A stretch of DNA of 64,000 nucleotides, from positions 4,588,001-4,652,000 of the forward strand of contig NZ_CP008884.1 in NCBI RefSeq assembly GCF_000725385.1, written 5' to 3'. This DNA is from Dyella japonica A8 (lineage in GTDB: Bacteria; Pseudomonadota; Gammaproteobacteria; Xanthomonadales; Rhodanobacteraceae). The stretch's first letter is position 1; each line of letters starts with the position of its first letter. Positions 3,420 to 22,994 of this stretch are shown piece by piece. A program made the position numbers and the translations under genes. The notes beneath the pieces were generated by a model, which had not been told where the DNA came from, did no database searches, and was given only the letters and a program-made list of their open reading frames with translations.

Positions 3420-5486
3420 ATGAACGTCACCGATCTTGGCCGTCGCTGCTTGTTTCGATTGCTGCGCGCAGGCTTTCGGCTAACCCCCATGCCCACAGCA
3501 ACGCGGGACAAGTGGCGCCAGCGCTTCCTGGACCGACACGGATCCCTGGTTCCACAAGGCCCCCAGGGCCAGCTGCCCGTGGGAACAGGCCGGATGCACA
3601 GACCCCTGCGCCACGCGGGCGGGCGGGCCATCGGCTACGTGCCGTATCGCAGCAAAGCCTTGCCTGCAGCCTTGCCGGCCAGGCTCGTCGCGTTTTATCT
3701 CCCACAGTTCCACCCCATTCCGGAAAATGACTCGTGGTGGGGTAGAGGCTTTACCGAGTGGGCCAATGTCACACGCGCGCTGCCGCAGTTTGAAGGCCAC
3801 GTCCAGCCGCGGCTGCCAGGCGCGCTTGGGTTCTACGATCTGCGCCATGCCGAGGTCATGCGCAGCCAGATGCAGCTGGCGAGCGAATATGGTGTCGGTG
3901 CCTTTTGCACCTACTTCTACTGGTTCGCCGGCAAAACGCTGTTGGAAGCACCACTACAGGCCTGGCTGGACGACGCCTCGCTCAGCCTGCCCATCTGCCT
4001 GTGCTGGGCCAATGAAAACTGGTCACGCCGCTGGGACGGCCGCGCTGAGGACATCCTGATCGGTCAGAAGCACAGCGCCGAAGACGACATTGCGTTCATT
4101 GAATACGTGTCGCGTTACCTGCGCGACCCACGCTACCTGCGCGTAGACGGAAAGCCGATGCTACTGGTCTATCGCCCCAGCCTGCTTCCCGACCCGAGGG
4201 CAACCGCGCAGCGGTGGCGCGAGTGGTGCCGTGCCCAGGGTATCGGTGAGCTCCATCTGGCCTACGTACAAAGCTTTGACCGTGTCGACCCGCGCGATAT
4301 CGGCTTCGATGCGGCAGTGGAGTTCCCTCCCAACAATACGTCGCTGACGCCGGTGACATCAAAACAACGGCTTATTAATCCAGACTACCGCGGCGACATC
4401 TTTGATTGGCGAATGCTTGCAAAGCAGGCCACTACCGCCAGCGACCCGACCTATCCACTCTATCCCGGCGTCAATGCGGGTTGGGACAACGAGCCCCGCC
4501 GAAGCGGCCGTGGCCGGGTTTATCTGCACGCCTCACCCAGGGGCTACCGCGACTGGCTACAGCAGGCCGTCAAAACCGCATGCCGCCGAATGCCCAGGAT
4601 GCCCTTGGTGTTCATCAACGCATGGAACGAATGGGCTGAAGGTGCAGTGCTGGAGCCTGACAACCGCCTGGGACACGCCTGGCTTGAGGCCACCCGGTCC
4701 GCGCTAGCTCCCGTTGTCGTGGCCGATACAAGGCCATGCGCCGTCATTCATGCATGGTATGTCGACGTACTCGAGGAAATGCTCCAGGACCTGGATCGCA
4801 GCGGCATTACCTGGCGCACGGTCATCACAACGGCGCCCGAACGCGAGAAACAGGTTCGCGACTGCGTAGCCAGGCTCGGCCTCGATCCACAGATCGAGGT
4901 GTTCGAGAATCGCGGCCGTGACGTCCTGCCATTCCTCCATGTCGCCAATCGCCTGCTAGATGAGGGAGCACAGGTCGTACTCAAGCTTCACACCAAACGC
5001 TCAACCCACCGAAACGATGGTGACCAGTGGCGGCGTGAGCTGGTGGAAAAATTGCTATCGCCGGCGCGTGCCGAGCGGATACTCGAAGCGTTCGAACAAC
5101 ATGCCGACCTGGGGCTGGTGGCGGCTGAAGGGCATCTGCAACCACTCCACTATTTCTGGGGCGCGAACGAGGCCAACGTGTACTACCTGAGTAGCCGCCT
5201 CGGCATAGCCGCACCATCCGTCGATAGTGATCAGTTCATTGCAGGCACCATGTTCTGGGCACGCTTGGAAGCATTGCGCCCCCTATTGGACGCACACCTG
5301 GACCTATGGGAATTCGAGGACGAATCCGGGCAAGTCGATGGCACCATGGCGCACGCCGTGGAACGCATCTTCACGCAGTCAGCAACAAGCATCGGCATGA
5401 CAACACAGAGTGCCGCACGGGTGTGCGGCCTGCCCGAGGCCGGGGAAGGAGCCGCCCCGTACCCCTATGCGCAACGGAGCGGCTAG
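3420..5486 (+). CDS. WbsX-like glycosyl hydrolase/transferase fused to an RgpF-like domain
   Basis: Polysaccharide assembly protein of 688 residues. After a basic N-terminus, residues about 88-430 form a WbsX domain (GH99-related, found in O-antigen loci): VAFYLPQFHPIPENDSWWG, GFTEWANVTRA, LCWANENWSRRWDG, INAWNEWAEGAVLEPD. Residues about 455-670 resemble RgpF (rhamnan synthesis F): FENRGRDVLPFL, VLKLHTKRSTH, SDQFIAGTMFWARLEAL. RgpF-type domains act in rhamnose-polymer assembly in streptococci, and this window also encodes dTDP-rhamnose synthesis. It follows the GT2/GT1 gene with a 48-base gap and runs convergently into galE with only 7 bases between stops. The exact reaction is unknown. Confidence 0.82.
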   Translation: MNVTDLGRRCLFRLLRAGFRLTPMPTATRDKWRQRFLDRHGSLVPQGPQGQLPVGTGRMHRPLRHAGGRAIGYVPYRSKALPAALPARLVAFYLPQFHPIPENDSWWGRGFTEWANVTRALPQFEGHVQPRLPGALGFYDLRHAEVMRSQMQLASEYGVGAFCTYFYWFAGKTLLEAPLQAWLDDASLSLPICLCWANENWSRRWDGRAEDILIGQKHSAEDDIAFIEYVSRYLRDPRYLRVDGKPMLLVYRPSLLPDPRATAQRWREWCRAQGIGELHLAYVQSFDRVDPRDIGFDAAVEFPPNNTSLTPVTSKQRLINPDYRGDIFDWRMLAKQATTASDPTYPLYPGVNAGWDNEPRRSGRGRVYLHASPRGYRDWLQQAVKTACRRMPRMPLVFINAWNEWAEGAVLEPDNRLGHAWLEATRSALAPVVVADTRPCAVIHAWYVDVLEEMLQDLDRSGITWRTVITTAPEREKQVRDCVARLGLDPQIEVFENRGRDVLPFLHVANRLLDEGAQVVLKLHTKRSTHRNDGDQWRRELVEKLLSPARAERILEAFEQHADLGLVAAEGHLQPLHYFWGANEANVYYLSSRLGIAAPSVDSDQFIAGTMFWARLEALRPLLDAHLDLWEFEDESGQVDGTMAHAVERIFTQSATSIGMTTQSAARVCGLPEAGEGAAPYPYAQRSG

Positions 5487-6608: not shown

Positions 6609-7355
6609 ATGAAAATTCTGGTCGGCTACAAGCGCGTCGTGGACTACAACGTCCGCATTCAGGTGAAGCCCGACGGTACGGGCGTGGTGACGGACGGCGT
6701 GAAGCTGTCCGCCAACCCCTTCGACGACATCGCGCTGGAAGAAGCGCTGCGCCTGCGCGAGAAGGGTCTCGCCGAGGAAGTGGTCGTCGTGGGCATCGGC
6801 CCGGCCGACCTCACCGCGCACCTGCGCAACGGCCTGGCCATGGGTGCCAACCGCGCCATCCACGTGGTGACCAGCGATGCCATGCAGCCGCTGACCGCCG
6901 CCCGCGTATTCCAGAAGCTGATCGAGAAGGAACAGCCGGGCCTGGTCATTCTGGGCAAGCAGGCCATCGACGACGACGCCAACCAGACCGGCCAGATGCT
7001 GGCCGCCCTGTGGGACCGCCCACAGGCCACCTTCGCCAGCAAAGTCGAGATCGCCAACGGCAAGGCCACGGTGACCCGTGAAGTCGACGCCGGCCTGGAA
7101 GTGATCGAAGCGGAACTGCCTGCCGTCATCACCACCGACCTGCGCCTGAACGAGCCGCGCTTCATCAAGCTGCCGGACATCATGAAGGCCAAGTCCAAGC
7201 CCATCGACACCATCGAATTCACTTCGATGGGCGTGGAAGCCAATGACCACCTCAAGACCACGCACTACGCCGCGCCGGCCAAGCGCAGCAAGGGCGTGAT
7301 GGTGAAGGATGCGGCCGAACTGGTCGCGGCGCTGAAGCAGAAAGGGCTGTTGTGA
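6609..7355 (+). CDS. etfB: Electron transfer flavoprotein beta subunit
   Basis: Small subunit of the soluble FAD/AMP electron carrier that takes electrons from acyl-CoA and other dehydrogenases to ETF-QO. The 248-residue product starts MKILVGYKRVVDYNVRI and contains the ETF-beta segments NPFDDIALEEALRLRE, MGANRAIHV and LPAVITTDLRLNEPRFIKLP, close to the PROSITE-type signature VEAELPAVIT region. Length is normal for the family. A GAGGA ribosome site precedes the ATG. etfA follows after 80 bases containing a hairpin. In Xanthomonas this gene pair forms the left boundary of the LPS locus. Confidence 0.96.
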   Translation: MKILVGYKRVVDYNVRIQVKPDGTGVVTDGVKLSANPFDDIALEEALRLREKGLAEEVVVVGIGPADLTAHLRNGLAMGANRAIHVVTSDAMQPLTAARVFQKLIEKEQPGLVILGKQAIDDDANQTGQMLAALWDRPQATFASKVEIANGKATVTREVDAGLEVIEAELPAVITTDLRLNEPRFIKLPDIMKAKSKPIDTIEFTSMGVEANDHLKTTHYAAPAKRSKGVMVKDAAELVAALKQKGLL

Positions 7356-7372
7356 TCATCCCTGATCAAACA

Positions 7373-7390
7373 CCGGCCATCCATGGCCGG
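7373..7390 (+). terminator. Small hairpin between etfB and etfA (possible attenuator)
   Basis: Perfect 8-bp stem (CCGGCCAT / ATGGCCGG) with a 2-base loop, followed by ACTTTTC. It lies in the 80-base etfB-etfA gap. It could weaken read-through or stabilise the etfB message; the T run is short, so a full terminator is unlikely. Confidence 0.4.
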
Positions 7391-7435
7391 ACTTTTCAAT
7401 AAAAGCCTCCCTGTCCCACGTTTGAGGGAACACCC

Positions 7436-8377
7436 ATGAGCAAGATCCTCGTCATCGCCGAGCACCTGAACGGCAAGCTGAATTCCTCCACCGCGCGCGC
7501 CGTGAGCGCCGCCGCGGCCGTCAAGCCAGAAGCCATCGACGTGCTGGTGCTGGCCGACAGCGTCGACGCCATTGCCACCGAAGCGGCCAAGATCGAAGGC
7601 GTGAGCCGCGTGCTTACCGTCGCCCGAGCCGAGAACGCCCATCCGCTCGCCGCCGTGCTGGCCCCGCAGATCGCGAAGGCCGCCGCTGGCTACAGCCATG
7701 TGTTCGCGCCGTCCACCACGTTCGGCAAGGACGTGCTGCCGCGCGTCGCCGCCCTACTGGGCGTGGCCCAGGTCAGTGACGTGATGAGCGTGGAAGGCAG
7801 CCACACTTTCAAGCGCCCGATCTACGCCGGCAACGCCATCATCACCGTGGAAGCCGATGCCGGCAGCACGGTGGTCGCCACCATTCGCACGGCCTCGTGG
7901 GCCGCTGCCGTCAGCGGCGCCAACAACGCCCCGGTAGAAGCGCTCAGCGTTGACGCCACCCTGCCCTCGCATACCCGCTTCGTCGAGCTGCAGTCGGGCA
8001 AGAGCGATCGTCCGGACCTGCAGAGCGCCGGCAAGGTCGTCTCCGGCGGCCGCGGCGTGGGTTCGAAGGAAAACTTCGAGATCATCTACAAGTTCGCCGA
8101 CAAGATCGGCGCTGCCGTGGGCGCCTCGCGTGCCGCGGTGGACGCCGGCTACGTGCCGAGCGACCTACAGGTCGGCCAGACCGGCAAGATCATCGCGCCT
8201 GAGCTCTACATGGCCATCGGCATTTCCGGCGCCATCCAGCACCTGACGGGCATCAAGGACGCAGGCACCATCGTGGCGATCAACAAGGACGGCGAGGCGC
8301 CGATCTTCGAGATCGCCGATATCGGCCTGGTGGGGGATCTGTTCAAGATCATCCCGGAGCTGGAGCAATCGCTTTAA
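7436..8377 (+). CDS. etfA: Electron transfer flavoprotein alpha subunit
   Basis: Large ETF subunit that binds FAD. The product has 313 residues, starts [16 protein letters not shown], and carries the C-terminal FAD-binding signature region ([19 protein letters not shown], then [18 protein letters not shown] and [19 protein letters not shown]). The N-terminal half shows the AMP-binding-like fold ([20 protein letters not shown]). AGGGA precedes the ATG. It is the last conserved gene before the variable O-antigen region: downstream the base composition drops and gene content turns to polysaccharide functions. Confidence 0.96.
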
Positions 8378-8788: not shown

Positions 8789-10243
8789 ATGAATTCATTG
8801 CCGGATACAAACTCTTTTGTGTGCGATCAGCACACCATGCCGTTGTGCGTCGACCTGGATGGCAGCCTGATCCATTCCGACCTGCTCGTGGAGTCAGCGT
8901 TACTTTTGCTGGGCAAGCAGCCATGGATGCTCTTTGGCATGCTGGTTTGGTTGCTTAAGGGAAAAGCTCATCTGAAGGAGCAGATTGCCCGGCGCGTCGA
9001 ACTAGACCCATCCGCGCTCCCATACAATCAGGAATTGCTCGCCTGGCTCAGATCGCAGCAGTCGAAGCGGCCCTTGATCCTGTGCACGGCATCGGATGCC
9101 AGGCTTGCGATCCCAGTAGCCAAGCACGTTGGAGTTTTCGACGATGTCATGGCCAGCGACGGGAAGAGGAATCTGTCCGGTCGCAACAAGGCCGATGCCC
9201 TCGTCGAACGTTTTGGCGAGCATGGTTTTGACTATGTCGGAAACGCCGATGTTGATTTGGCCGTGTGGCAACGCGCCCACGGAGCCATCGTGGTTGAAGC
9301 GAGCGCCCACCTCTCCTCCGCGGCCAGTCGTGTGGCGCAGGTCAAACAGCGATTTCCAGCGCACAAGGCAACTTTGCGCACATGGCTAAAAGCGCTGCGT
9401 GTCCATCAATGGGTCAAAAACGTCCTGGTTTTCCTACCACTCCTGGCCGCGCATCGCATCTTTGATCTGGCAGCCGTAGCCGGCACAGTTCTTTCCTTTC
9501 TGTGCTTTGGTCTCTGTGCGTCCAGCGTCTATCTGACCAATGATCTACTCGACCTGACAGCGGATCGACATCATCACAGGAAACGCAGTCGTCCATTTGC
9601 CGCGGGCAAGCTACCACTTGCCGCGGGCCCGGTGGTGGCGGCTCTTCTGCTTGTTTGCGGCTTTGCTCTCGCCTCACTTCTGGATGTCAAGTTCGTACTG
9701 ACGCTCGCCGCCTATTACGTACTGACCACGCTTTACTCGCTTCACCTCAAGCGCGTTGTCATGCTTGACGTGATCGTGTTGGCGATGCTTTACACGACAA
9801 GGATCCTTGCCGGCACCGCCGCAATTCAGGGCAAGCATTCGTTCTGGCTCATGGCGTTTTCAATGTTCATCTTCCTCAGCTTGGCCATGGTCAAGCGCTT
9901 TACGGAGCTCTTGGGTGCGCAGAAGGCGGGAAAAGTAACGGCGAAAGGTCGCGGCTATGACGTCGATGACATTCCCCTCATACAGTCGCTCGGCAGCGCG
10001 AGCGGCTACCTCGCCGTGCTGGTGTTGGCGCAGTACGTTGAAAGCACCGCGAGCAGCATGCTTTATCGACACCCTCACTATCTCTGGCTGCTATGTCCCC
10101 TGCTGCTTTATTGGATTAGCCGGACCTGGGCCATTGCCCATCGGGGTGTAATGCATGACGACCCGGTCGTGTTCGCACTGAAGGACAAGGTGAGCCGGAT
10201 TTTGCTGGTCATTGCCGCCGCGATTGTCGCCATATCGATCTGA
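8789..10243 (+). CDS. HAD phosphatase-UbiA prenyltransferase fusion, DPPR-synthase-like
   Basis: A 484-residue protein. Residues about 17-185 form a HAD domain: motif I DLDGS (D22, D24), motif II around LCTASD, a lysine in GRNKADAL, and motif IV GNADVD. Residues about 200-484 are a polytopic UbiA domain with the prenyl-diphosphate motif NDxxDxxxD (N251, D252, D255, D259) followed by HHHRKRSRPFAAGKL, close to Rv3806c-type decaprenyl-phosphate phosphoribosyltransferase. That enzyme joins PRPP to polyprenyl phosphate. The HAD part might remove the 5-phosphate (inference). GGGAGGGG precedes the ATG. The stop overlaps the next start by one base (TGATG), and the next two genes are DprE1- and DprE2-like, so a polyprenyl-phospho-arabinose pathway is likely. 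Confidence 0.85.
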   Translation: MNSLPDTNSFVCDQHTMPLCVDLDGSLIHSDLLVESALLLLGKQPWMLFGMLVWLLKGKAHLKEQIARRVELDPSALPYNQELLAWLRSQQSKRPLILCTASDARLAIPVAKHVGVFDDVMASDGKRNLSGRNKADALVERFGEHGFDYVGNADVDLAVWQRAHGAIVVEASAHLSSAASRVAQVKQRFPAHKATLRTWLKALRVHQWVKNVLVFLPLLAAHRIFDLAAVAGTVLSFLCFGLCASSVYLTNDLLDLTADRHHHRKRSRPFAAGKLPLAAGPVVAALLLVCGFALASLLDVKFVLTLAAYYVLTTLYSLHLKRVVMLDVIVLAMLYTTRILAGTAAIQGKHSFWLMAFSMFIFLSLAMVKRFTELLGAQKAGKVTAKGRGYDVDDIPLIQSLGSASGYLAVLVLAQYVESTASSMLYRHPHYLWLLCPLLLYWISRTWAIAHRGVMHDDPVVFALKDKVSRILLVIAAAIVAISI

Positions 10244-11556
10244 TGAAGACTCAAGCACCGTCCTGGGGGCTTTACCCAAAAGCGACGCAGCACCTGATTG
10301 GGCTGCACGACCGGCATGCGCCCATTCCCCGTTTTGACGGACATCTCTTGCCACGGGGCAACGGCAGGAGTTACGGCGATAGCTGCCTCAACGACGGCGG
10401 CGCACTCTTGCTTGCTCGAGGACTGGACAGGTATCTGCAATTTGATGCAGCCACAGGCGTCATCGAATGCGAATCAGGCGTGCTCCTGTCAGAAATTTTA
10501 AGCCTCGCCGTACCGCAAGGCTGGTTCCTGCCTGTCACACCTGGCACCAAATTCGTTACCGTCGGCGGGGCCATTGCCAACGACGTCCACGGCAAAAACC
10601 ACCACCGATCTGGAACTTTTGGGCACCACATCCACGGATTCGAATTGCGTCGCACCGACGAAACACTCCGATGGTGCAGTCGTACGGAGAACACAGACTG
10701 GTTTGCGGCAACGATTGGCGGCCTGGGGCTCACCGGCCTAATCACCAGGGTGAAGCTTCAACTGCGCCGGATAGCAAGCCCCTGGCTGAATAGTGAAGTC
10801 GTCCGATTTGGAGGGCTGCCGGAGTTCTTTGCATTGTCCGCTGACTCCGAAGCAAATCATGAATACACGGTCGCATGGATCGATTGCGCGGCGCGCGGCA
10901 AGGCACTCGGCCGCGGCCTCTTCAGTCGCGCCAACCACGGCCCAGCACAACCAGAAAGACGTCCACCGGCTGACATTCAGCGTAAGAACGTACCATTCAC
11001 GCCACCGGTCTCGCTGATAAACAATCTGAGCCTTCGCGCATTCAATTTCGCCTACTATCACAAGCAAAGGCAGCAACTTGCCCGAGCCGTAGCGCACTAT
11101 GACCCATTCTTCTATCCGCTTGACGCGATTGGAAACTGGAATCGGATTTATGGACCGCGCGGATTCCTGCAGTATCAATGCGTCGTTCCACCAGAGGACG
11201 CAGAGCAATCGATTCACCGCCTGATGGAGCTGATCTCCAAATCGGGATCCGGGTCTTTTTTGGCGGTACTCAAGCAGTTTGGGCAACAGCAATCACTGGG
11301 GATGATGTCGTTTCCACGTACGGGAACCACGCTCGCGCTTGATTTTCCCAATCACGGAAGCTCGACGCTTCAACTGCTGCAGCAATTGGACAACGTTGTT
11401 GCGGAATCGGGAGGCCGCGTCTATCCGGCAAAGGACGCTCGAATGTCGGCCGACCATTTCCAGCGGTACTACACGAACTGGGAGGCATTCAGCGGCTTCA
11501 TCGACCCCAAGTTCTCTTCCAGCCTTTGGCGCAGAGTTACGGACCACGCATGCTAA
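10243..11556 (+). CDS. DprE1-like FAD-dependent decaprenylphosphoryl-ribose oxidase
   Basis: Predicted to oxidise the 2'-hydroxyl of polyprenyl-phospho-ribose, the first half of its epimerisation to the arabinose form. The 437-residue protein has the PCMH/VAO FAD fold: PRGNGRSYGDSCLN, TPGTKFVTVGGAIANDVHG (H116 corresponds to the flavin-site His132 of the Mycobacterium enzyme) and KNHHRSGTFGHHIHG. The C-terminal part follows DprE1 closely, with FLAVLKQFG, LALDFPNHG and GGRVYPAKDARM (K397, equivalent to Lys418). At the site of mycobacterial Cys387 there is Ala365. It is coupled to the UbiA gene upstream (TGATG) and overlaps the SDR gene downstream. The proteobacterial substrate is inferred from context. 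Confidence 0.85.
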   Translation: MKTQAPSWGLYPKATQHLIGLHDRHAPIPRFDGHLLPRGNGRSYGDSCLNDGGALLLARGLDRYLQFDAATGVIECESGVLLSEILSLAVPQGWFLPVTPGTKFVTVGGAIANDVHGKNHHRSGTFGHHIHGFELRRTDETLRWCSRTENTDWFAATIGGLGLTGLITRVKLQLRRIASPWLNSEVVRFGGLPEFFALSADSEANHEYTVAWIDCAARGKALGRGLFSRANHGPAQPERRPPADIQRKNVPFTPPVSLINNLSLRAFNFAYYHKQRQQLARAVAHYDPFFYPLDAIGNWNRIYGPRGFLQYQCVVPPEDAEQSIHRLMELISKSGSGSFLAVLKQFGQQQSLGMMSFPRTGTTLALDFPNHGSSTLQLLQQLDNVVAESGGRVYPAKDARMSADHFQRYYTNWEAFSGFIDPKFSSSLWRRVTDHAC

Positions 11557-12287
11557 ATGTTCTTATCATCGGCGCAAACTCTGCCATCGCGGAGGCTACC
11601 GCCCGGATTTATGCAAATCGCGGCGCACGACTGTTCCTCGTCGCACGAAACTCCCACAAGCTCGCCGACCTTACCGCAGATCTAAGCGTCCGCGGTGCAT
11701 CAGCCGTTGGCAGCTGCGTGTTGGATGTAGGTGATGTGGCAAGCCAAGCCGGGGCACTTGAACAGGCGAAGGCCTTCTTGTCATCCATCGATGTTGCACT
11801 GATCGCTCATGGCACCTTACCCAAGCAAGAGGCCTGCGAGGCATCCGTTGACACCGCTCTTGCAGAGTTCTGGATAAATGCGAGTTCGACGATTGCACTG
11901 CTCACGCAGCTCGGAAATACCTTCGAGGCTAAGGGGAGCGGCACCATAGCCGTCATCTCGTCCGTTGCGGGCGATCGCGGCCGGGCCAGCAACTATCTCT
12001 ACGGCGCCGCGAAATCTGCGGTGAGCACCTTCTTGAGCGGCATGGGGCAAAGGCTTAAGTCCAAAGGCATCACCATCCTGAACATCAAGCCTGGATTCGT
12101 CGACACTCCAATGACAAGCGAGTTCAAGAAGGGACCGCTTTGGGCCAAGCCAGACGCTGTCGCAAAAGGAATTGTTCGAGCCATCGACACAAAGAAGGCC
12201 GTCGTCTATTTACCCGGCTTCTGGCGCCTTATCATGTTGGTGATTCGACACATTCCTGAAACGGTCTTCCGCCGTATCAGGCTATAG
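11550..12287 (+). CDS. DprE2-like short-chain dehydrogenase
   Basis: Predicted NAD(P)H-dependent reductase of the 2-keto intermediate made by the DprE1-like enzyme, yielding polyprenyl-phospho-arabinose. The ATG at 11550 gives 245 residues and a seven-base overlap with the preceding gene; an upstream TTG is possible but less likely. Seen: an N-terminal Rossmann motif IIGANSAIAEA (the SAIA form typical of DprE2), VISSVAG with the catalytic serines near 137-138, and YGAAK (Y151, K155). The C-terminus ends in a hydrophobic/basic stretch FWRLIMLVIRHIPETVFRR, suggesting membrane association as expected for a lipid-linked substrate. Last gene of the plus-strand cassette. Confidence 0.83.
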   Translation: MLNVLIIGANSAIAEATARIYANRGARLFLVARNSHKLADLTADLSVRGASAVGSCVLDVGDVASQAGALEQAKAFLSSIDVALIAHGTLPKQEACEASVDTALAEFWINASSTIALLTQLGNTFEAKGSGTIAVISSVAGDRGRASNYLYGAAKSAVSTFLSGMGQRLKSKGITILNIKPGFVDTPMTSEFKKGPLWAKPDAVAKGIVRAIDTKKAVVYLPGFWRLIMLVIRHIPETVFRRIRL

Positions 12288-12545
12288 GCGGATGATCGCC
12301 CAGGATCAGTGTTCCGTCGTCTAGCGACGCGAAACCGGCGCGTTCCCGGGAACCTGTTGCTGGCGGTTTTTTGGTCCCGGGGCGCGCTTAAAGCCGCGTG
12401 GTAGATCGCCCCGCCAAGACGGGCCAGCAGCCCCTCGCTTTCAAAGGGCCGAGAGGCTTCGCATTCCCGCCTCTGCGGGAATGTCATGGCTGATACGTTG
12501 CGAGATTTTGCTGGCGATGCCTTGTGGCAGGCGCACGGCGCCCTG
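12288..12545. other. Gene-free convergent region with REP-like palindrome
   Basis: Region between convergent operons. No credible coding frame. It contains a perfect 9-bp inverted repeat (CATTCCCGC at 12462-12470 and its complement at 12475-12483, loop CTCT), of the short palindromic kind repeated in xanthomonad and pseudomonad genomes. Confidence 0.45.
12462..12483. repeat. REP-like short palindrome
   Basis: CATTCCCGC, loop CTCT, GCGGGAATG: a perfect inverted repeat in an intergenic region between convergent genes. The sequence resembles RAYT-mobilised REP units (GC-rich stem beginning with an ATTCCCGC type core). Copy number in the genome cannot be judged from this window. Confidence 0.4.
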
Positions 12546-12568
12546 AGCCCTCGGTAAATCCGAGGGCT
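12546..12568. terminator. Bidirectional terminator hairpin between convergent operons
   Basis: AGCCCTCGG, loop TAAAT, CCGAGGGCT: a perfect 9-bp stem, 10 bases from the stop of the minus-strand gene. T content after the stem is modest in both directions. Confidence 0.6.
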
Positions 12569-12579
12569 CTTGCTGTCCG

Positions 12580-14805
12580 TCACACTGCCCCGGACTGACC
12601 AGCAGACCGCTCGTCCGATGGTCGGCGGCCGATCCTCCGAAACAACAAGGAGCCGGTCAACAGCACAATCATGCCCAGCGGCAAGAGCGCCCAACGCCGA
12701 CCCTTTAGTGGTTCGAAGGTAAGCACGAGACGCGCGGAACCTGAGATTCCATCCGGAACGTCAACCCGCACCAGAAGTCCGTCGTGTGGCGAAACGGAGA
12801 CCTTCTTCCCGTCAATCCTTGCCACATAACCGGGCCACCAGAGGCGCGCAAAGATTAGTGACCTGGCCAGTGGCCCGGCCGGCGCCCTGTCTTGGGACAC
12901 ACTGATATTCACGATCTCTTTCGTGGCTTCAACGCCCACATTGGCAGGCTCCATTACGCCAGTAATCGCGCTTCCCGTGAAAGAAATCGTTCCAGGCGGA
13001 AACGTCGTTGGATCTTTGCGAACCCAGCGCGCGAACTGATCTCCCATTGTTTCTGCCTGCCACCCTTCGGGCGCATGACCTGCTTCCCGGGATGGAACAA
13101 CGATGGCTCGGATCCGCATCAGGTCTACGAATTTCCTCCCCGACTGCGGCTCAGCCTCGAACAGTGCCATGGGAGACCTGTCGCATACGGCCCCGGCGAA
13201 ATCCAGACAAAAGAGTTCCTGCAGTCGGGCGTGATTCGCCGGCGAGTAACCGTTTACGAATCGCTGTCCGGACGAAAGGCGTAAATATCCATTGATCAGA
13301 TGATCTCCAGCCGTTGAATTGGCTGATGCAAACACATACTCGATGGGATCCGAAAACTTTCCGCTCACCTCGATGTCATCGATGGTTTCGCGCCGGTCAA
13401 CTGCCGGGTCATGCCATAAGTCCGGAGCGTCCGTAACGATGTCGTTGGCCGGGTAAATAGCATGCGTAAATACAAAGAAAATGCCCGACCACAGCAACAC
13501 AAAATGTGCCACCAATCTCGCATTGATCTTTGAAACATACGCCACCGAAAGGCCTGCGACCAACAGCAACAATGTTCCACTTACAGCATTCTTCATGTTC
13601 TCCGGCTGAAACTGGATCGACATGACCTGTGGCACGACAAAAAGCAATGCAAGGGTGACCGCTACGCCGACCCCAATTTCACGTTCACGGGACTCGCGGT
13701 AAAGCACAAGGATGAACAGTAGCGCCAGAAACTGGAAATAAGGAACAAACCGGAATGGCCAGCGCAGAGGTCCGATTTGCTCAGGCCCCAAGGACAGGAA
13801 CAACAAGACCGCTGCGCCCACAAGCAAGCCGAGCAAACGAGGCTTGAGAAAAACTCGCCAGTTGGGCTTTACCAGGAGAAGAGGCGCCCAGCCGAACCAA
13901 GCAATGAAGAAAATCGGCAGCGAAACGTTCTTGTCGTGGAACCCCTTGAGGTGGGGCAGCAAAGTCGGGGATCCCAGATTCAGAATATCCGACAACACCG
14001 GCACCAGGAGCCAGTTGTTGTAAAAGCCGCTACCCCTTGATGAGATGGATAGCAAGTCACGCGTCACCAGTATCGAGGGCAAAGACGCGATGAGAGCTGA
14101 CAACATGATCAGACCCACATAGGCCACACGACGCCAGTCACGCGTCCAAAGCGCAACGGCACCCACGCCGCCCGCTAAAATAAACGTTGCTACGATGGCA
14201 TGCGGCCAGCCGCTGTTAATGGCCGCGAAGGCGGAAAAGGCACCCAGGATGAGTGCCGGAGCCCGGACCACTTGCAACGTCAGGCAGAAGGCGACCCATA
14301 CAACCCATGTTTGCCCGATCAGCCCCGCGGTCCAATTGGATGTGAACCAATAGACGACAAAGTTGTTGCTGATCAGCAGAAAGGCAAATATCCGCCTGTA
14401 GGCTCGCGGAAGTTCAAAGTTCCCTGCAAGCAGCCAGCCACCAAACCACAAGAGTACGGTGTAGTACGCATCAATGGCGAACAACCCTATCCGCGCGGTC
14501 GGACAGAGTGCTGACAACACGGCCCCCAGCATGGTGACGGGGTTTAGCAATCCATACTGGTTCTCGCCAAAGAGAAATCCTCCTTGCCACATATCGATGG
14601 TCAGGGAGGGCCACTTGCCGTTGAGCAGTTGATGACCGATGTACTGGAATATCGGTCCGTACTGCCTCGAACTTTCGTCAACAAAGAAGAAGTGCGGCTT
14701 GTAGTGTTCGCAAACAGCGAACACGAAAGCAGTCGCAAGACCGGCCTCGATCAATAGAACGAGAAACCGCCGCAATCCGTATGCAAAACTCCAACCCATG
14801 TTCAT
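12580..14805 (-). CDS. Large polytopic membrane protein, GT-C / YfhO-like
   Basis: A 741-residue integral membrane protein. About a dozen hydrophobic segments occupy residues 10-460 (for example RRFLVLLIEAGLATAFVFAV and ILGAFSAFAAINS). A soluble, probably periplasmic, region spans about 465-700, and one last membrane segment is WALLPLGMIVLLTGSLLF. The tail (LWWPGYVARIDGKKVSVSPH, LLVRVDVPDG, LVLTFEPLKG) is like the C-terminal beta domain of YfhO-type GT-C proteins, which use polyprenyl-phosphate sugars. An early VDESSRQYGP loop offers the acidic residue expected in GT-C loop 1. It ends a minus-strand triplet with GtrA and an FAD enzyme and faces the arabinose-donor cassette, so it is a candidate acceptor-side transferase. 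The function is inferred. Confidence 0.7.
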   Translation of the reverse strand: MNMGWSFAYGLRRFLVLLIEAGLATAFVFAVCEHYKPHFFFVDESSRQYGPIFQYIGHQLLNGKWPSLTIDMWQGGFLFGENQYGLLNPVTMLGAVLSALCPTARIGLFAIDAYYTVLLWFGGWLLAGNFELPRAYRRIFAFLLISNNFVVYWFTSNWTAGLIGQTWVVWVAFCLTLQVVRAPALILGAFSAFAAINSGWPHAIVATFILAGGVGAVALWTRDWRRVAYVGLIMLSALIASLPSILVTRDLLSISSRGSGFYNNWLLVPVLSDILNLGSPTLLPHLKGFHDKNVSLPIFFIAWFGWAPLLLVKPNWRVFLKPRLLGLLVGAAVLLFLSLGPEQIGPLRWPFRFVPYFQFLALLFILVLYRESREREIGVGVAVTLALLFVVPQVMSIQFQPENMKNAVSGTLLLLVAGLSVAYVSKINARLVAHFVLLWSGIFFVFTHAIYPANDIVTDAPDLWHDPAVDRRETIDDIEVSGKFSDPIEYVFASANSTAGDHLINGYLRLSSGQRFVNGYSPANHARLQELFCLDFAGAVCDRSPMALFEAEPQSGRKFVDLMRIRAIVVPSREAGHAPEGWQAETMGDQFARWVRKDPTTFPPGTISFTGSAITGVMEPANVGVEATKEIVNISVSQDRAPAGPLARSLIFARLWWPGYVARIDGKKVSVSPHDGLLVRVDVPDGISGSARLVLTFEPLKGRRWALLPLGMIVLLTGSLLFRRIGRRPSDERSAGQSGAV

Positions 14806-14832
14806 AGCCTGACACCGTCCCCTGGCTGGCGC

Positions 14833-15279
14833 TCAACGAACACCGGCTGCCCTGAAAGAAAAATATTTATGACCAAGAAAGCTCGGTAGCGCGCATGCAG
14901 CCAGTCCGACCAGCTGCGCAAGGACGTCCGGATGGAAGCTCACACCCAAATTCGGCAGGACAATTCGGAAAGCAAGCGAGCTTACGGTAACCGCAATTGC
15001 AAGCGACACCACATTTACCAAGGTAAAACGCCAAATTCTGGCGTAAGTAAGAACCTGCTCGCCAGAAAATACAAAGCGCCTATTTAGAGTAAAAGCGATA
15101 ATCACCCCGGCCACCTGCGCGAGGCCGACAGCCACCTCGTACGGCATGACCAGGTTCGCCACATACCGCACAATCAGCGAACATACGGCGGAGATTGAGC
15201 TGACAAAGACAAACGCAGCGAACTGCTTGATCAATGGCGTGAACGAAGGGACCACGTTTTCCCGTTTTTGCATACTCAT
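14833..15279 (-). CDS. GtrA-family membrane protein
   Basis: A 148-residue protein with four transmembrane segments (around residues 18-40, 45-68, 83-105 and 118-140). The family marker FTLNRRFVFSG follows helix two, and GHKYFSFR is at the end. GtrA/PF04138 proteins are thought to flip or help present polyprenyl-phosphate-linked sugars across the inner membrane in glycan modification systems such as the Shigella gtr operons. Here it stands directly upstream of a GT-C-like protein (27-base gap), the usual gtr arrangement, and downstream of an FAD oxidoreductase. It would fit as the flippase for the lipid-linked pentose made by the opposite-strand cassette (inference). Confidence 0.85.
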   Translation of the reverse strand: MSMQKRENVVPSFTPLIKQFAAFVFVSSISAVCSLIVRYVANLVMPYEVAVGLAQVAGVIIAFTLNRRFVFSGEQVLTYARIWRFTLVNVVSLAIAVTVSSLAFRIVLPNLGVSFHPDVLAQLVGLAACALPSFLGHKYFSFRAAGVR

Positions 15280-15388
15280 TCCAAGTCATCCACCCAAGCA
15301 ACCGCAGAAAACACCCACTCATGGCACAAGAGGCTGCTTGCAGATCGGCTTAAGACCCCCCGCCCTGCCGCCAAAAGGGTCTTGTCGC

Positions 15389-16672
15389 TCAAATCATTTT
15401 CGCCATTGAGCGCGCCAAACCAATGCTCTCGGAAATCCCGCGGTCCTCGGGGTAATAGTAGGAGGTATCCGCAACCAGCAGGCCATCAATGGGCAACTTC
15501 ACTGGCGGAAGTCGGTCAAGGAATCCTGGTTCGCAAACAGGTTGTGCAAACCGGTACCGACTTGCGCGGACATCAATGAAGTCATCATCCTCAAGATCGG
15601 CGTTTATCTTCTGCAGATATCGCCGGACCTTGTCGATGAACACCGAGTCCGCATCCTGGTATGTCGGATGCTCACCGGGCATATAGAAAGGCACGTATAC
15701 GACGTGACAATCCAACGGACGAAGGTTGGTGTACTCGACAATTCCAGGGATATCCATTTCCGGATCGTTTGTATTCAACCAGAAATTGTTGGTTACAGGC
15801 TTCTTCAGCTTTGCTATGACGCAGACGACCGCTACATTCTTAACGCTCTGATAGGCCTGCAGTAAACTTTCAGGCAGATCAGGCATCAAGCGCGGCACGT
15901 AAGGCAGTGGAACAGTGCTGATCACCTTATCGAACGCGAGATGTTGCCCAGCCACTTCAACACCTGTGACCTTGCCCTCCTCCATCAGCACCTTCTGAAC
16001 GGGTGAGCTCAGATGGAACTCGCCCCCATTTCGCTCGATGTAGTCGCGCATGGCAACAAGCAAGGTGTCCGAGCCGCCATCCAGATAACCTAGCTTCTCG
16101 CGGAATAGGTCGTAACGTGACCTGCCAATCCGGCGAATGCGGCTCCAGATCCAAGCCGCCGACAAATTGTTGGAATAGTCGTAGAACTTGTATTCAAAAA
16201 GCCGACGCCACAAGAGCTCCCATGCCTCTTCGCCAACCCAGCGCCGGATCCAGCCACTGGCCTCGATCTTGTCCAGGGGCTTCCAGTCATTCCGACGCGT
16301 ACACAAAAACGCATGAATGCCATATCGAATCTTTGCTGGCAGGCTAAGGCCTTTGAATTTCAGCAATGCGATGGGATTTCCCCAGGGTTGGACGCGTCCG
16401 TTATGGAAGTACCCCATCTTGGTTTCGCGCCAGTGCATACGATCCTCAAGGCCGAGTTCCTTTAGAACCTGGAAGAAGGCGTCATCAGACGTAGCGTGAA
16501 AGTGATAGTAACGCTCAATGCTTAGGCCATTGAAATCAAACGATGCAGCCATACCACCAACACGGTCATCGGCCTCGAAGATCACAGGTTTGCGACCATC
16601 CTTGACTAACTGGTAAGCGACACCCAGCCCCATGGGACCAGCGCCGAGTACTGCTACGCGATCTGTGCTCAT
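15389..16672 (-). CDS. NAD(P)/FAD-dependent oxidoreductase, amine-oxidase/UGM-like
   Basis: A 427-residue flavoprotein of the protoporphyrinogen-oxidase/amine-oxidase superfamily, also related to UDP-galactopyranose mutase. The N-terminus has the dinucleotide motif VAVLGAGPMGLGVAYQL, then an acidic residue and VGGMAASF; a C-terminal FAD segment is present (LLVADTSYYYPEDRGISES). The length is standard. No transmembrane segment is evident. It is first of a three-gene minus-strand unit with GtrA and the GT-C-like protein. Similar enzymes occur in many O-antigen loci without an assigned reaction; a sugar-ring or polyprenyl-sugar redox step is possible. Substrate unknown. Confidence 0.75.
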   Translation of the reverse strand: MSTDRVAVLGAGPMGLGVAYQLVKDGRKPVIFEADDRVGGMAASFDFNGLSIERYYHFHATSDDAFFQVLKELGLEDRMHWRETKMGYFHNGRVQPWGNPIALLKFKGLSLPAKIRYGIHAFLCTRRNDWKPLDKIEASGWIRRWVGEEAWELLWRRLFEYKFYDYSNNLSAAWIWSRIRRIGRSRYDLFREKLGYLDGGSDTLLVAMRDYIERNGGEFHLSSPVQKVLMEEGKVTGVEVAGQHLAFDKVISTVPLPYVPRLMPDLPESLLQAYQSVKNVAVVCVIAKLKKPVTNNFWLNTNDPEMDIPGIVEYTNLRPLDCHVVYVPFYMPGEHPTYQDADSVFIDKVRRYLQKINADLEDDDFIDVRASRYRFAQPVCEPGFLDRLPPVKLPIDGLLVADTSYYYPEDRGISESIGLARSMAKMI

Positions 16673-17675
16673 ATCGAATTGAATTTCCCTTGCCGTTCGT
16701 TAGCGCGCTTCGAATTGAAGCTTCGTCGCCCTGGATCTATGCCCGAGCGAAATCGCACCCCTTAAGCCCCCTATGATAAGGGGCCAGGCGCTTTTTTTTC
16801 GAGGCTGGGCTGAGCGCCCGCCCCGCGATAACCGCGGCCCTTGCGCACGGGATCTGCCTTCGATCATCTAAAGCAATGGCGATCGAGACAATGAGGTGGC
16901 GAACCTGGGTCGGGCCATGCTGGCCCATATTCTCGATAGTCCAGCACTCATCAGGAACGGCAGACGCTGCGACCACGCCAAATATCATACTTAACCAATG
17001 GCTTACGATGCCTTATGCCGCATAGCCGGGCGGTCGGCGCTGGCCAAGGTCATTTATTCCGCCTGACAACGGCAAATGCAAGCTGGCGATGCATTCGCCC
17101 TGGAACAGGCCTGCCATGAGCCGCGCAAGTACACTTGCCTAGCCGTGAACGCGACATACTCCAAGGTTCCGTGTCCCTGAGCCTTTGACCGACATGGCGT
17201 GCGGCCAACACAGGCAACCTGGCGCTTTCCGCCTCTCATCAGCTAGCAAGTCAAGACGGCAAAACGCGACACGCAGAGGAAACGGGCCGCCCAGCCCGTG
17301 ATAGAACGACTATCGCCGCCACCTTTGGGGTTCGGTATCAGGGCGAGCACGGTAACTCACATGCCGCCTGACCTGAGTTGCCAACGTATCAGTCATCGGA
17401 CAGCGTGAGCCCGCCCCTCAGAGCCGTAGGCCACTACTCAATCTTGCCACGTGTCCACGCTATCTCAGCACATCACGCGAGACGCCCAAGGACCGAGCAC
17501 TGAGAGTACCTGGCAGATCTGCCGCGAGCACCGGAACCCATAACTGTGCCTCTGCCCTGCGGGAGGGGATCCAACGTCTCGACTTTCAACAAGCCGCCGG
17601 GCACCGGATTTTCATCCGTCGCAGGAATGCTGAATTTGAATCACTACGGGATTCTGCCAGCGGTTCTGAGAAAAG
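16673..17675. other. Gene-free kilobase inside the O-antigen locus
   Basis: About 1.0 kb with no recognisable gene on either strand; only open frames below about 85 codons exist, none with family character. It contains a hairpin (CCCCTTA at 16758-16764, TAAGGGG at 16777-16783) and a T8 run at 16792-16799, which in the plus direction would look like a terminator, although no plus-strand gene lies upstream. Base composition is mixed. It may be a scar of gene loss or recombination between the two halves of the locus, or hold an undetected RNA. Confidence 0.5.
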
Positions 17676-18758
17676 TTAGTAACCGAGCATACGATTGGCC
17701 TCTGCCAAGCCTGACTCTTCAAAGAAGTCCTGCACCGCCGCGGACCAGTGCTCCTCGTGGGAGCTAGGTCTATCGGACAATGTTGAAGTTGGCATCCCCA
17801 GCACGAGCGGCAGTTTTGTCGAGAACGCTGTGGCGAGTTCTCCATCAATGGCAGCGAGAGCTGCGCTCGTATCTTCCGTCAATTGCCCGGTCAGGAGCTC
17901 TTCAAATTTCAGCCGAACGCCAACATCGGCGGCAATGGCCCGAGCAACTTCCTGAACGTGCTTCACATCACGATCAGCAAAGTGCAGCAAAAAGCCAAGG
18001 AATCGGCCTGATTCGGGGAGTGCGCGCCAGAGTCGGTCCTCGACATCCAGGGGGTCTACAGTGCTCAGCTTGAACCGATAAAGCGAAATCAGCACATCGC
18101 GCAAATCGCGGATGCAATTCAACTTGGCGACGCCTAACTTGTCGATGGCGGCCAACTGAAAGCTGTCTTCAATATGGCCAACAACACACTCACCTCGCCC
18201 CATCAATGCGGCCAAAGCACCGGCTGGCAGCGAATGACGGCGGGACTGCGGAGCCCGATGTACGTCAGCCTCCTCGATGCCCCGATTATCGTCGTAGATG
18301 TAGCTCCCCAGGTGAAGCCCAATAGGCGCCACGCCCAAATGACGAAGCACCCCCTCGACGAGATAGGTACCCGACTTGGGAATGGAATTAATCAGCATGG
18401 GCGGATAATCAGGCAGCGGCGCCGGGTGCTCATCCAGCACCAGAGTGGGCAACAGGAATACACGCTGAAGCCCCCCCGACAAAAAGACCTGTCCCTCCCC
18501 AACCCGCGTCAACTCCGCCGTGACCTCATCGACTTCGTTGAAAAAGAGCAGTCGGTCGTCGCATAACTCGTATCGGCGCTCGTTCGGGTGGGAGTAGTAA
18601 CGGACCAAACCGTCCACCCCCAACACCATGTCGCCGTAGAGCCCATACATCGTGGAGCCGTACTTAAATACTGTCCGGAACAGGTGGGCGTTCTCAGAGC
18701 CAAGGTTTTGCATGCACTTATCGAATAACAGGACACCAAGCTGGATGCACTCCCGCAT
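17676..18758 (-). CDS. Sulfotransferase-family protein
   Basis: Predicted PAPS-dependent sulfotransferase of 360 residues. The 5'-phosphosulfate loop is LINSIPKSGTYLVEGVLRHLG (core P127 K128 S129 G130 T131), and the 3'-phosphate-binding motif is RDLRDVLISLYRF (R217, S225). Residues 1-118 form an extra N-terminal region (VDGLVRYYSHPNERRYELCDD) that was not recognised. The start is uncertain: the ATG at 18758 has only a G-run directly before it, and the frame stays open and coding-like for twelve more codons upstream to a TAG, without an ATG. Placed among O-antigen glycosyltransferases, it may sulfate the polysaccharide. A C7 tract (18471-18477) lies inside the gene. Confidence 0.75.
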   Translation of the reverse strand: MRECIQLGVLLFDKCMQNLGSENAHLFRTVFKYGSTMYGLYGDMVLGVDGLVRYYSHPNERRYELCDDRLLFFNEVDEVTAELTRVGEGQVFLSGGLQRVFLLPTLVLDEHPAPLPDYPPMLINSIPKSGTYLVEGVLRHLGVAPIGLHLGSYIYDDNRGIEEADVHRAPQSRRHSLPAGALAALMGRGECVVGHIEDSFQLAAIDKLGVAKLNCIRDLRDVLISLYRFKLSTVDPLDVEDRLWRALPESGRFLGFLLHFADRDVKHVQEVARAIAADVGVRLKFEELLTGQLTEDTSAALAAIDGELATAFSTKLPLVLGMPTSTLSDRPSSHEEHWSAAVQDFFEESGLAEANRMLGY

Positions 18759-18954
18759 CCCCCAGGGTTCCTGCTCCTTCAGGAGAGGTGAGTTCTAGTT
18801 CATGGCGCGGCGACTCCACCGTCCATGCTGCGACAAAGAGGGCCGACCCGCGCGCATCTTTGTGACAGTCTTATGAACTCACTTTACCCCAAAAGCTGTC
18901 GTAAAGCTGTAGCGGATTTCACGACTTGCCAAGCGCAAAATCCGCTGCATCACC

Positions 18955-21851: not shown

Positions 21852-22994
21852 TCACATGTCCACGTTGAACGCGGGCATCCCATCCGGGTCGGCAAGGAAA
21901 CGGCGCGACACGTCCAGCGCCTCGGCAATCGTCACGTGCATGTCGAGGTAACGATACGTGCCCAGACGACCAACAAACGTTACCGACTGCTCCTGGCGCG
22001 CCAGGTCAACGTAGCTGGCTAGCTGCTTCATTTCGGCAACCAGACGGATCGGGTAGTACGGAATATCGTCCTCACCACAAACACGGCTGCGCTCCCGGAA
22101 TATCACCGTCTTTTCGTGGGACTCCCAGGGAGCAAAATGCTTGTGCTCAGAGATACGCGTCCACGGCACCGATTCGTCGCAATAGTTGATGACGGCATTG
22201 CCCTGGAAATCGCCGTTGTCGGTGTGGGCTTCAAAGTCAAGGGTGCGATAGGCTAAACGCCCATCGGCAAAATCGAACCATTTGTCGATCGGGCCGCTAT
22301 AGAACACATGATCGTAGCTCGGCACCATTTCACGCGTGAATGGGGTGCTCAAATGCAACTTGACGCCCGGCATGTCGAGCATTTTCTCGACGATATGGGT
22401 ATATCCGTTCTTTGGAATACCTTGATGCCGACTGTTGTAATAGTTGTCGTCATAGTTGAAGCGCAACGGCAAGCGCTTGAGGATGCTTGCGGGGAGCTCA
22501 GTCGGATCCATACCCCACTGCTTGCGGGTGTAACCGCGGAAGAAGGCCTCGTACAGATCGCGACCGACAAAGCGAAGGGCCTGCTCTTCAAACGTCTGGG
22601 GATCAGCGATGCTTTCGTCTGCCAGCGTGGTGACGAATGCAGCCGCCTCCTTGGGCGAGAGCGCCTTGCCGAAGAACTGGTTGATTGTGTGCAGATTGAT
22701 CGGCATGGAATAAATCTTTCCGCCGACATTGGCCTTCACACGATTGATGTACGGCATGAATTCGTCGAATTCATTGACGTAACGCCACACCTCTTCATTG
22801 CTGGTGTGAAAAATATGCGGCCCATACACATGAACCATGACACCCGTGTCGGCGTCGCGCTCGGTATGGCAATTGCCCGCCACGTGGCCTCGAGTGTCGA
22901 ACACGTCGATCTCGTAACCCGCCTGGCTCAATTGATGCGTGATGACTGCGCCAGAAAAGCCGGCTCCGGCAATGGCAATCTTCTTTTTGGGCAC
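21852..22994 (-). CDS. glf: UDP-galactopyranose mutase
   Basis: Converts UDP-galactopyranose to UDP-galactofuranose with reduced FAD. The 380-residue product matches the bacterial family over its length: IAIAGAGFSGAVITHQL, VFDTRGHVAGNCHTE, VHVYGPHIFHTSNEEVW, YTRKQWGMDPTELP, and the conserved arginine/tyrosine segments YYNSRHQGIPKNGYTH and FVGRLGTYRYLDMHVTI. Length agrees with known Glf proteins. Together with galE it implies galactofuranose in the glycan. The upstream 47 bases are AT-rich (GAATTAATTCTGAATTAGG on the minus strand) and may hold a promoter. Confidence 0.96.
   Translation of the reverse strand: MPKKKIAIAGAGFSGAVITHQLSQAGYEIDVFDTRGHVAGNCHTERDADTGVMVHVYGPHIFHTSNEEVWRYVNEFDEFMPYINRVKANVGGKIYSMPINLHTINQFFGKALSPKEAAAFVTTLADESIADPQTFEEQALRFVGRDLYEAFFRGYTRKQWGMDPTELPASILKRLPLRFNYDDNYYNSRHQGIPKNGYTHIVEKMLDMPGVKLHLSTPFTREMVPSYDHVFYSGPIDKWFDFADGRLAYRTLDFEAHTDNGDFQGNAVINYCDESVPWTRISEHKHFAPWESHEKTVIFRERSRVCGEDDIPYYPIRLVAEMKQLASYVDLARQEQSVTFVGRLGTYRYLDMHVTIAEALDVSRRFLADPDGMPAFNVDM

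Follow-up and report, generated by a model that had tools for sequence, protein, structure and literature searches.

The three overlapping genes at 8789-12287 of the window (the whole stretch of 64,000 nucleotides from Dyella japonica A8 that was analysed) probably make polyprenyl-phosphate-linked D-arabinofuranose, which is predicted to end as a side chain on the O-antigen of the LPS. The gene overlaps described in an earlier note on this DNA were confirmed, with open reading frames at 8789-10243, 10243-11556, and 11526-12287, all on the plus strand. Gene 1 (8789-10243, 484 aa) encodes a fusion of a phosphatase-like HAD domain with a UbiA domain of the polyprenyl-phosphate phosphoribosyltransferase type, and gene 2 (10243-11556, 437 aa; PF01565) a DprE1-like FAD-dependent oxidase. 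Gene 3 (PF00106) encodes a DprE2-like short-chain reductase; genes 2 and 3 were both also recognised by NCBIfam and PDB matches. The frame of gene 3 opens at a TTG at 11526 (253 aa), and its ATG at 11550 gives 245 aa (11550-12287). Genes 1 and 2 overlap by 1 nt, and genes 2 and 3 by 7 nt with ATG 11550 as the start.

Sequence searches of the PDB supported the proposed Rv3806c-like, DprE1-like, and DprE2-like assignments: the best matches were decaprenyl-phosphate phosphoribosyltransferase 8j8j for residues 199-474 of gene 1 (E=5e-24), DprE1 4aut for gene 2 (E=2e-72), and DprE2 21gq chain C for gene 3 (E=4e-30, with the next SDR at 1e-13). While the UbiA part of gene 1 had been recognised correctly in the earlier note, the HAD domain fused to its N-terminus (residues ~12-192) had been overlooked. 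This domain has a nucleophilic Asp and the UbiA domain the predicted fold of a polyprenyl-phosphate phosphoribosyltransferase, as in charging enzymes of the PRP-PPPRS (ORF15) type, and since the HAD domain is already fused to gene 1, no separate phosphatase gene is required. All three proteins scored below the cut-offs of the mycobacterial equivalog models in NCBIfam: gene 1 reached 146.6 bits at best against PRK12324 (decaprenyl-phosphate phosphoribosyltransferase, cut-off 234), gene 2 reached 360.1 bits over residues 36-431 against NF053785 (DprE1, cut-off 500), and gene 3 reached 185.9 bits against NF053786 (DprE2, cut-off 250). DprE1 was nevertheless the top-scoring NCBIfam family and the top PDB group for gene 2, and gene 1 scored above the cut-off of PRK08238 (UbiA family prenyltransferase, 664 bits, cut-off 351), as did gene 3 for PRK07102 (SDR family oxidoreductase, 313 bits, cut-off 267). 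The cassette proteins are thus homologues of the mycobacterial enzymes that, judged by sequence, likely work alike, rather than proven equivalogs.

Chance or mis-annotation was ruled out by the PDB matches of all three proteins and by the conservation of the cassette: of 85 loci with homologues of all three, 81 retain the order HAD-UbiA, DprE1, DprE2 and 83 retain the strand, which shows that the unit is real. These loci, which are related to one another, comprised 23 from the same family, 61 from a genome collection, and the window, with at least four genomes present in both sets, as seen from contigs of matching length (516807, 1659441, 223689, and 280676). The collection set consisted of the best 80 of at least 583 confirmed loci, among which 61 carried DprE1 and DprE2, 3 carried DprE1 only, and 16 carried neither. 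Among 117 family genomes, the gene 1 protein found matches at E<=0.001 in 53; it matched at full length at E<1e-130 in 39 of these, own genome counted, and the remaining 14, which matched partly and mostly over the UbiA half, were left out. Of the 38 further genomes, 34 supplied loci, with G061, G070, G079, and G114 left out. Because a simple greedy ORF caller misses or merges genes, presence calls relied on tblastn or on six-frame profile searches. A promoter and terminator scan gave no signal above shuffled sequence.

The cassette had been placed in a xanthomonad-type LPS locus, and its surroundings agree with one running from etfA to metB. Directly upstream lie two ORFs that are presumably etfB and etfA (6609-8377, plus strand), conserved in relatives by tblastn; downstream are a wzt-wzm-like ABC exporter (24556-26099, minus strand; PF00005, PF01061) and a metB-like gene (26109-27317; PF01053). 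In the part of Patil et al. 2007 consulted, the etfA flank defines this locus type (PMC2238763). What had been missed in the otherwise correctly named LPS locus are an adjoining likely flippase and transferase. A 741-aa membrane protein (12580-14805) has a predicted GT-C fold, from a model of low confidence, and a C-terminal beta domain, and is likely a lipid-linked-pentose transferase; one of its homologues (P0124) carries PF09586. It is accompanied by a 148-aa GtrA-family membrane protein (14833-15279; PF04138, 46.5 bits, gathering cut-off 26.1), likely a lipid-linked-sugar flippase, and by a 427-aa FAD-dependent oxidoreductase, FADox (15389-16672). All three are on the minus strand, opposite to the cassette.

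The components of the three-component pentofuranose modification defined by Kelly et al. 2024 (PMC11127046) were found encoded together, namely a charging enzyme (8789-10243), a GtrA protein (14833-15279), and a predicted GT-C protein (12580-14805), and the DprE1/E2 homologues that go with Araf as the sugar were identified by their PDB matches, the sugar itself being predicted. Polyprenyl-phospho-arabinofuranose, as first suggested, was upheld as the likely product. The HAD domain of gene 1 would remove the 5-phosphate, and a DprE1-like oxidation at C2, with a DprE2-like reduction, would lead to undecaprenyl-phospho-arabinofuranose. I infer that the GtrA and GT-C proteins act with this cassette: the former may flip the lipid-linked sugar, and the latter may act in the periplasm to attach arabinose to the polymer built by the ABC-transporter pathway. 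A point against this reading is that no glycan structure of this organism was found.

GtrA homologues co-occurred with DprE-positive cassettes. A single profile detected GtrA in 22 of 23 same-family and 40 of 61 collection loci (best 80 of at least 583), and the union of profiles in 23 of 23 and 44 of 61, respectively; no GtrA was seen in 17 of 84 DprE-positive loci, several of them on short contigs and the collection part again being the best 80 of at least 583. A strict rule by which the sugar sets the flippase (GtrA for Araf, SMR for Ribf) is weakened because three loci break the pairing: L141 pairs DprE1/E2 with an SMR-like gene and lacks GtrA, while L061 and L143 carry GtrA but no DprE1/E2. 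All 24 same-family loci that have GtrA and FADox carry them on the cassette strand, as do 33 of 36 (GtrA) and 33 of 35 (FADox) loci of the collection (best 80 of at least 583), so that GtrA, FADox, and the GT-C gene, inverted in the window, may be a separate import. The GT-C protein was rejected as a usual cassette partner: a loose first look, scoring at most two candidates per listed genome, found it in a single genome among 398 of the order, and a search restricted to shared 5-mers gave five other proteins.

A rare and inverted GT-C/GtrA block is also consistent with an unlikely alternative, in which lipid-linked arabinose is made for an acceptor other than the O-antigen, be it a glycan or a protein (type IV pilin, an exopolysaccharide, or a glycolipid), and the neighbouring pair serves a different lipid-linked sugar. 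The precedents named in the earlier note were borne out in print, as far as the descriptions consulted go: P. paraeruginosa (PSPA7_6245-6251, TfpW) and A. caulinodans (noeCHOP) share a mycobacterial-type D-arabinose donor pathway in a Gram-negative, likened here from descriptions rather than sequences, with D-Araf placed on pilin in the former and arabinose on Nod factors in the latter. The P. aeruginosa enzyme lacks a PRP domain (PMC11127046). Moreover, three GT2 genes of the whole genome match the ArnC model under its cut-off (172, 98, and 66 bits), and with only two GtrA genes present, the one in the window could act on a different lipid-linked sugar. However, neither GtrA gene adjoins an ArnC-like GT2 gene, the cassette here occupies the interval from etfA to metB in an LPS-type locus, and 13 of the 23 DprE-positive loci from the same family have etfA, though no metB was noticed, within the ~19.5-kb stretch that holds the cassette. 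The second GtrA gene (C1:2600533), its neighbours judged by size and start only, was rejected as part of another Gtr operon, having no ArnC-like GT2 nearby. The nearest ArnC-like GT2 gene adjoins a gene for a 415-aa, 8-TM protein, outside the family scan.

FADox (NCBIfam PRK07233, 562 bits, cut-off 252) was found in all 28 DprE1-bearing genomes among the 117 of the family and is a regular cassette partner in relatives. At E<=1e-50 it was detected in 32 of the 117, three of which were distant (28-29% identity) and left out, leaving 29. An extended SDR, SDR314, accompanied the cassette in 27 of 28 DprE1 genomes and was missing in the window genome at E<=1e-50. Decay in place was rejected, as a search of 12280-18800 gave no trace of the gene (best E 0.15). 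SDR314, FADox, and GtrA were nearly all-or-none as a trio, and among 398 genomes from the phylum the seven that carry SDR314 all have DprE1 as well. The best PDB matches by sequence were phytoene dehydrogenase for FADox (E=3e-10) and an NAD-dependent epimerase/dehydratase for SDR314 (E=3e-9), neither protein having a close solved relative.

This tight association, and the retention of FADox in the window genome, would suit an end sugar other than plain D-arabinofuranose, the lipid-linked intermediate being altered further by FADox and the extended SDR in relatives and FADox alone being a different step or a relic here. I consider this doubtful: FADox has no known chemistry, and it was not seen in 26 of 61 DprE1+E2 collection loci (best 80 of at least 583), some of these lying on short contigs, which suggests that cassettes lacking it also occur. 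A quite improbable extension is a two-stage rebuild in relatives, where DprE1/E2 invert C2 and an unrelated second redox pair, FADox and the extended SDR, alters the same lipid-linked sugar again. The product would be a pentofuranose so far unseen in glycans, for example lyxofuranose, in which C2 and C3 are each inverted. The window genome would then be a natural knock-out of stage two, with the SDR lost, FADox kept, and plain or differently altered arabinofuranose attached by a transplanted transferase. The absence of SDR314 without a remnant and the inverted block could also indicate a decayed or silent locus yielding no product, which is very improbable given that all six module genes (cassette, GT-C, GtrA, and FADox) are full-length open reading frames and that gene 1 retains its likely catalytic residues.

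Several known systems resemble this module in part. The Citrobacter youngae O1/O2 system (ORF12-15; PMC11127046) shares the HAD(PRP)-UbiA charging enzyme, a GT-C protein with a C-terminal beta domain, an ABC-transporter O antigen, and, in O2, a change of the pentose by an epimerase, the window transferase being likened to GT136 ORF12 by its predicted fold only. In contrast to the DprE1/E2 pair and GtrA-family protein of the window, C. youngae has the single SDR ORF13 and the small ArnE-like ORF14 (PMC11127046). The mycobacterial decaprenyl-phospho-arabinose pathway (Rv3806c, Rv3807c, Rv3790/Rv3791, Rv3789) has homologous UbiA, DprE1, and DprE2 enzymes with the same predicted reactions and, in the text consulted, a GtrA homologue, Rv3789 (PMC7389260), corresponding to 14833-15279; its phosphatase is Rv3807c instead of a fused HAD domain, and its lipid is decaprenyl, whereas undecaprenyl is expected here. 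GtcA-YfhO teichoic-acid glycosylation, as partly covered in PMC7389260, also pairs a GtrA-family protein with a YfhO-type glycosyltransferase, but with hexose/HexNAc donors from cytoplasmic GTs and Gram-positive acceptors.

The cassette is indeed present in a Gram-negative LPS locus, but its presentation as a surprise was overstated, given the 2024 pathway type (PMC11127046) and a matching block that was tabulated in 2007 for the side of Xanthomonas LPS loci next to etfA (PMC2238763, consulted in part). In X. oryzae BXO8 and X. citri 306 that table gives a 481-aa prenyltransferase, a 433-aa oxidoreductase, and a 242-aa SDR near etfA, together with a ~430-aa 'phytoene desaturase', a GtrA-like protein, and membrane proteins in two convergent units, the equivalence to the window being judged by size, name, and order. 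Xanthomonas additionally encodes an epimerase of 312-314 aa and, in BXO8, a methyltransferase. Neither turned up in the window, where FADox, GtrA, and GT-C are inverted relative to the Xanthomonas block. Xanthomonas loci L080, L082, and L102 carry HAD-UbiA, DprE1, DprE2, SDR314, FADox, and GtrA. The part of Patil et al. 2007 consulted does not mention arabinose, and a word search of the main text of an X. citri LPS paper (PMC3391215) found neither 'arabinose' nor 'xylose'.

The predicted arabinose supply for the surface sugar coat would add one more example to a pathway type already known from Gram-negatives, placing a complete candidate D-arabinofuranose donor pathway, with its accompanying neighbours, in an LPS-type locus of Dyella. 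Two points go beyond the cited texts, figures S11/S12 of Kelly et al. aside. FADox and the extended SDR are close partners of the cassette in many loci, Xanthomonas included, and the pathway as now described may thus lack steps in such loci; natural variants such as the window, with no SDR, an inverted block, and a rare transferase, allow a comparison of glycans for the role of this pair. Judging from the genes present, arabinose-type modules also seem to be exchanged for ribose-type ones, and the reverse, at the etfA end of this LPS locus, even among members of a single genus; such swapping would offer a simple genetic explanation for changes of serotype.

Three plus-strand genes make up the cassette, and the likeness to mycobacterial arabinose enzymes that the earlier note had claimed for them was borne out by their open reading frames and best solved matches. 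By sequence, gene 1 (8789-10243), a HAD-UbiA fusion, was closest to decaprenyl-phosphate phosphoribosyltransferase 8j8j (E=5e-24, residues 199-474), a mycobacterial enzyme (PMC11127046), gene 2 (10243-11556) to DprE1 (E=2e-72), and gene 3 to DprE2 (E=4e-30; next SDR 1e-13). The gene 1 stop and gene 2 start have one base in common, and the gene 3 frame (11526-12287) probably starts at ATG 11550, which would give a seven-base overlap with the end of gene 2. In alignments, gene 2 had HGKNHH and a Y-x-AKD stretch in common with DprE1 and an alanine at the cysteine of 'WNVCVDFP' in the aligned DprE1 chain, presumably the benzothiazinone-binding residue, while gene 3 kept the SDR Tyr-x-x-x-Lys when aligned with DprE2. 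Because both scored below the NCBIfam cut-offs for the mycobacterial equivalogs (360 against 500 for DprE1, 186 against 250 for DprE2), they are called DprE1-like and DprE2-like here.

The surroundings are indeed a xanthomonad-type LPS locus, with the etfA-metB layout and of the ABC-transporter type. The etfB-etfA pair ends at 8377, before the cassette, which is convergent with a minus-strand gene for a 741-aa membrane protein (the GT-C protein, 12580-14805), followed on the same strand by a GtrA-family protein (14833-15279, PF04138), an FAD oxidoreductase (FADox, 15389-16672, PRK07233), a gap of ~1 kb without a convincing gene (16673-17675) and a 360-aa protein (17676-18758). Beyond these lie two GT2 genes, a UDP-galactopyranose-mutase-like gene (21852-22994, minus), a 249-aa protein without family, a further GT2, wzt, wzm and metB. 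G+C is 0.65-0.67 in etfB/etfA and lower, at 0.52-0.60, for genes between 8789 and 26099. The 360-aa protein is possibly an O-antigen sulfotransferase; it contains 'IPKSGTYLV', which I take to be a sulfotransferase-like start, and matched PF00685 at only E=0.14. Given the mutase-like protein (PF03275, 257 bits; TIGR00031, 302.8 against a cut-off of 303.75), this glycan might also contain galactofuranose. Upstream of etfB, 3420-5486 (plus) encodes RgpF fused to a WbsX-type glycosyltransferase domain, and WbsX-like genes also occur near etfB in several relatives.

A block like this cassette has been known in Xanthomonas since 2007, when a table covering X. oryzae BXO8 and X. citri 306 included a matching set of genes (PMC2238763), with entries for a prenyltransferase (481 aa), oxidoreductase (433), SDR (242), methyltransferase (223), epimerase (312), phytoene desaturase-like protein (430) and GtrA-like protein (136). 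Arabinose precedents on other acceptors are also on record: D-Araf on pilin and the arabinosylation of Nod factors, both invoked in the earlier note, appear in the literature, as does the D-arabinan of Devosia.

Of the 117 family genomes, 39 had full-length HAD-UbiA, 28 had DprE1, 28 had SDR314 (an extended SDR of 314 aa) and 29 had a close FADox. All 28 DprE1 genomes also had FADox, and 27 of them had SDR314, the sole exception being the window's own; a single genome (G044) had SDR314 and a close FADox without DprE1. Across 34 same-family loci, the 23 with DprE1+E2 all had the trio of SDR314, FADox and GtrA, each time within one ~19.5-kb stretch that also held the cassette, and on the same strand as the cassette. 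In the best 80 of at least 583 confirmed collection loci, the whole trio was present in 35/61 loci with DprE1+E2, FADox being missing from 26/61, and in 0/16 without; two more loci held a single trio member, GtrA in L130 and SDR314 in L135, a short contig. DprE1-like proteins occurred in 54 of 398 phylum genomes and SDR314 in seven, all among the 54. This co-occurrence makes SDR314 and FADox close partners of the cassette. The window is an exception, since its FADox and GtrA are inverted relative to the cassette and its genome, a single contig of 4.83 Mb placed in the same genus as genome G035, yielded no SDR314; no SDR314 remnant was found in the gap at 16673-17675. A search of the open-access literature, not aimed at these two alone, turned up no paper giving FADox or SDR314 a role.

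The most likely working of the cassette together with GtrA and the GT-C protein is an arabinofuranose route to the O-polysaccharide. The UbiA domain would convert PRPP and undecaprenyl phosphate to a 5-phosphoribosyl lipid, the HAD domain would take off its 5-phosphate, and the DprE1/DprE2-like enzymes would invert C2 to give an arabinofuranosyl lipid, which GtrA would flip and from which the GT-C protein would move arabinofuranose to the O-polysaccharide. Gene identities, the HAD-UbiA fusion, predicted folds and linkage are observed, whereas the lipid and the acceptor, each of the reactions and the cassette's pairing with GtrA and the GT-C protein are inferred. Weak points of this route are that GtrA, the GT-C protein and FADox lie on the opposite strand from the cassette, that the genome contains, at other sites, three ArnC-like GT2 genes whose products could likewise supply a GtrA, and that FADox is absent from those 26 collection loci. 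At L165 (G000:C1:1936000-1948000), genes resembling those for prepilin peptidase and pilus assembly adjoin an aminotransferase-like gene and an ArnC-like GT2; L165 is possibly a separate glycosylation locus.

Gene content near the module varied between loci. A ~225-aa class I methyltransferase lay in or near it in part of the trio loci (12/34 same-family loci: L039, L040, L045-L051, L054-L056; 7 of the best 80 of at least 583 collection loci) and was not found in the window. In L079, L080, L082, L102, L138 and L140 (Xanthomonas and others), the gene immediately upstream of HAD-UbiA encodes a multi-TM protein of 317-328 aa, an LPG_synthase_TM (PF03706) in L102 and L138; none was seen in the window. 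Two DprE1-bearing cassettes (L141, L122) had an SMR-like gene and no GtrA was found in them; there is therefore no strict coupling between flippase type and sugar. In L060, L062 and L063, the etfA end carried HAD-UbiA without DprE1/E2 (one gene lies between in L060, which belongs to the window's genus), alongside a 119-125-aa multi-TM protein, matching ArnE/ArnF models in L062, and a different large membrane protein. This arrangement resembles the Citrobacter ribofuranose layout, and the etfA-end site therefore seems to hold alternative pentofuranose modules.
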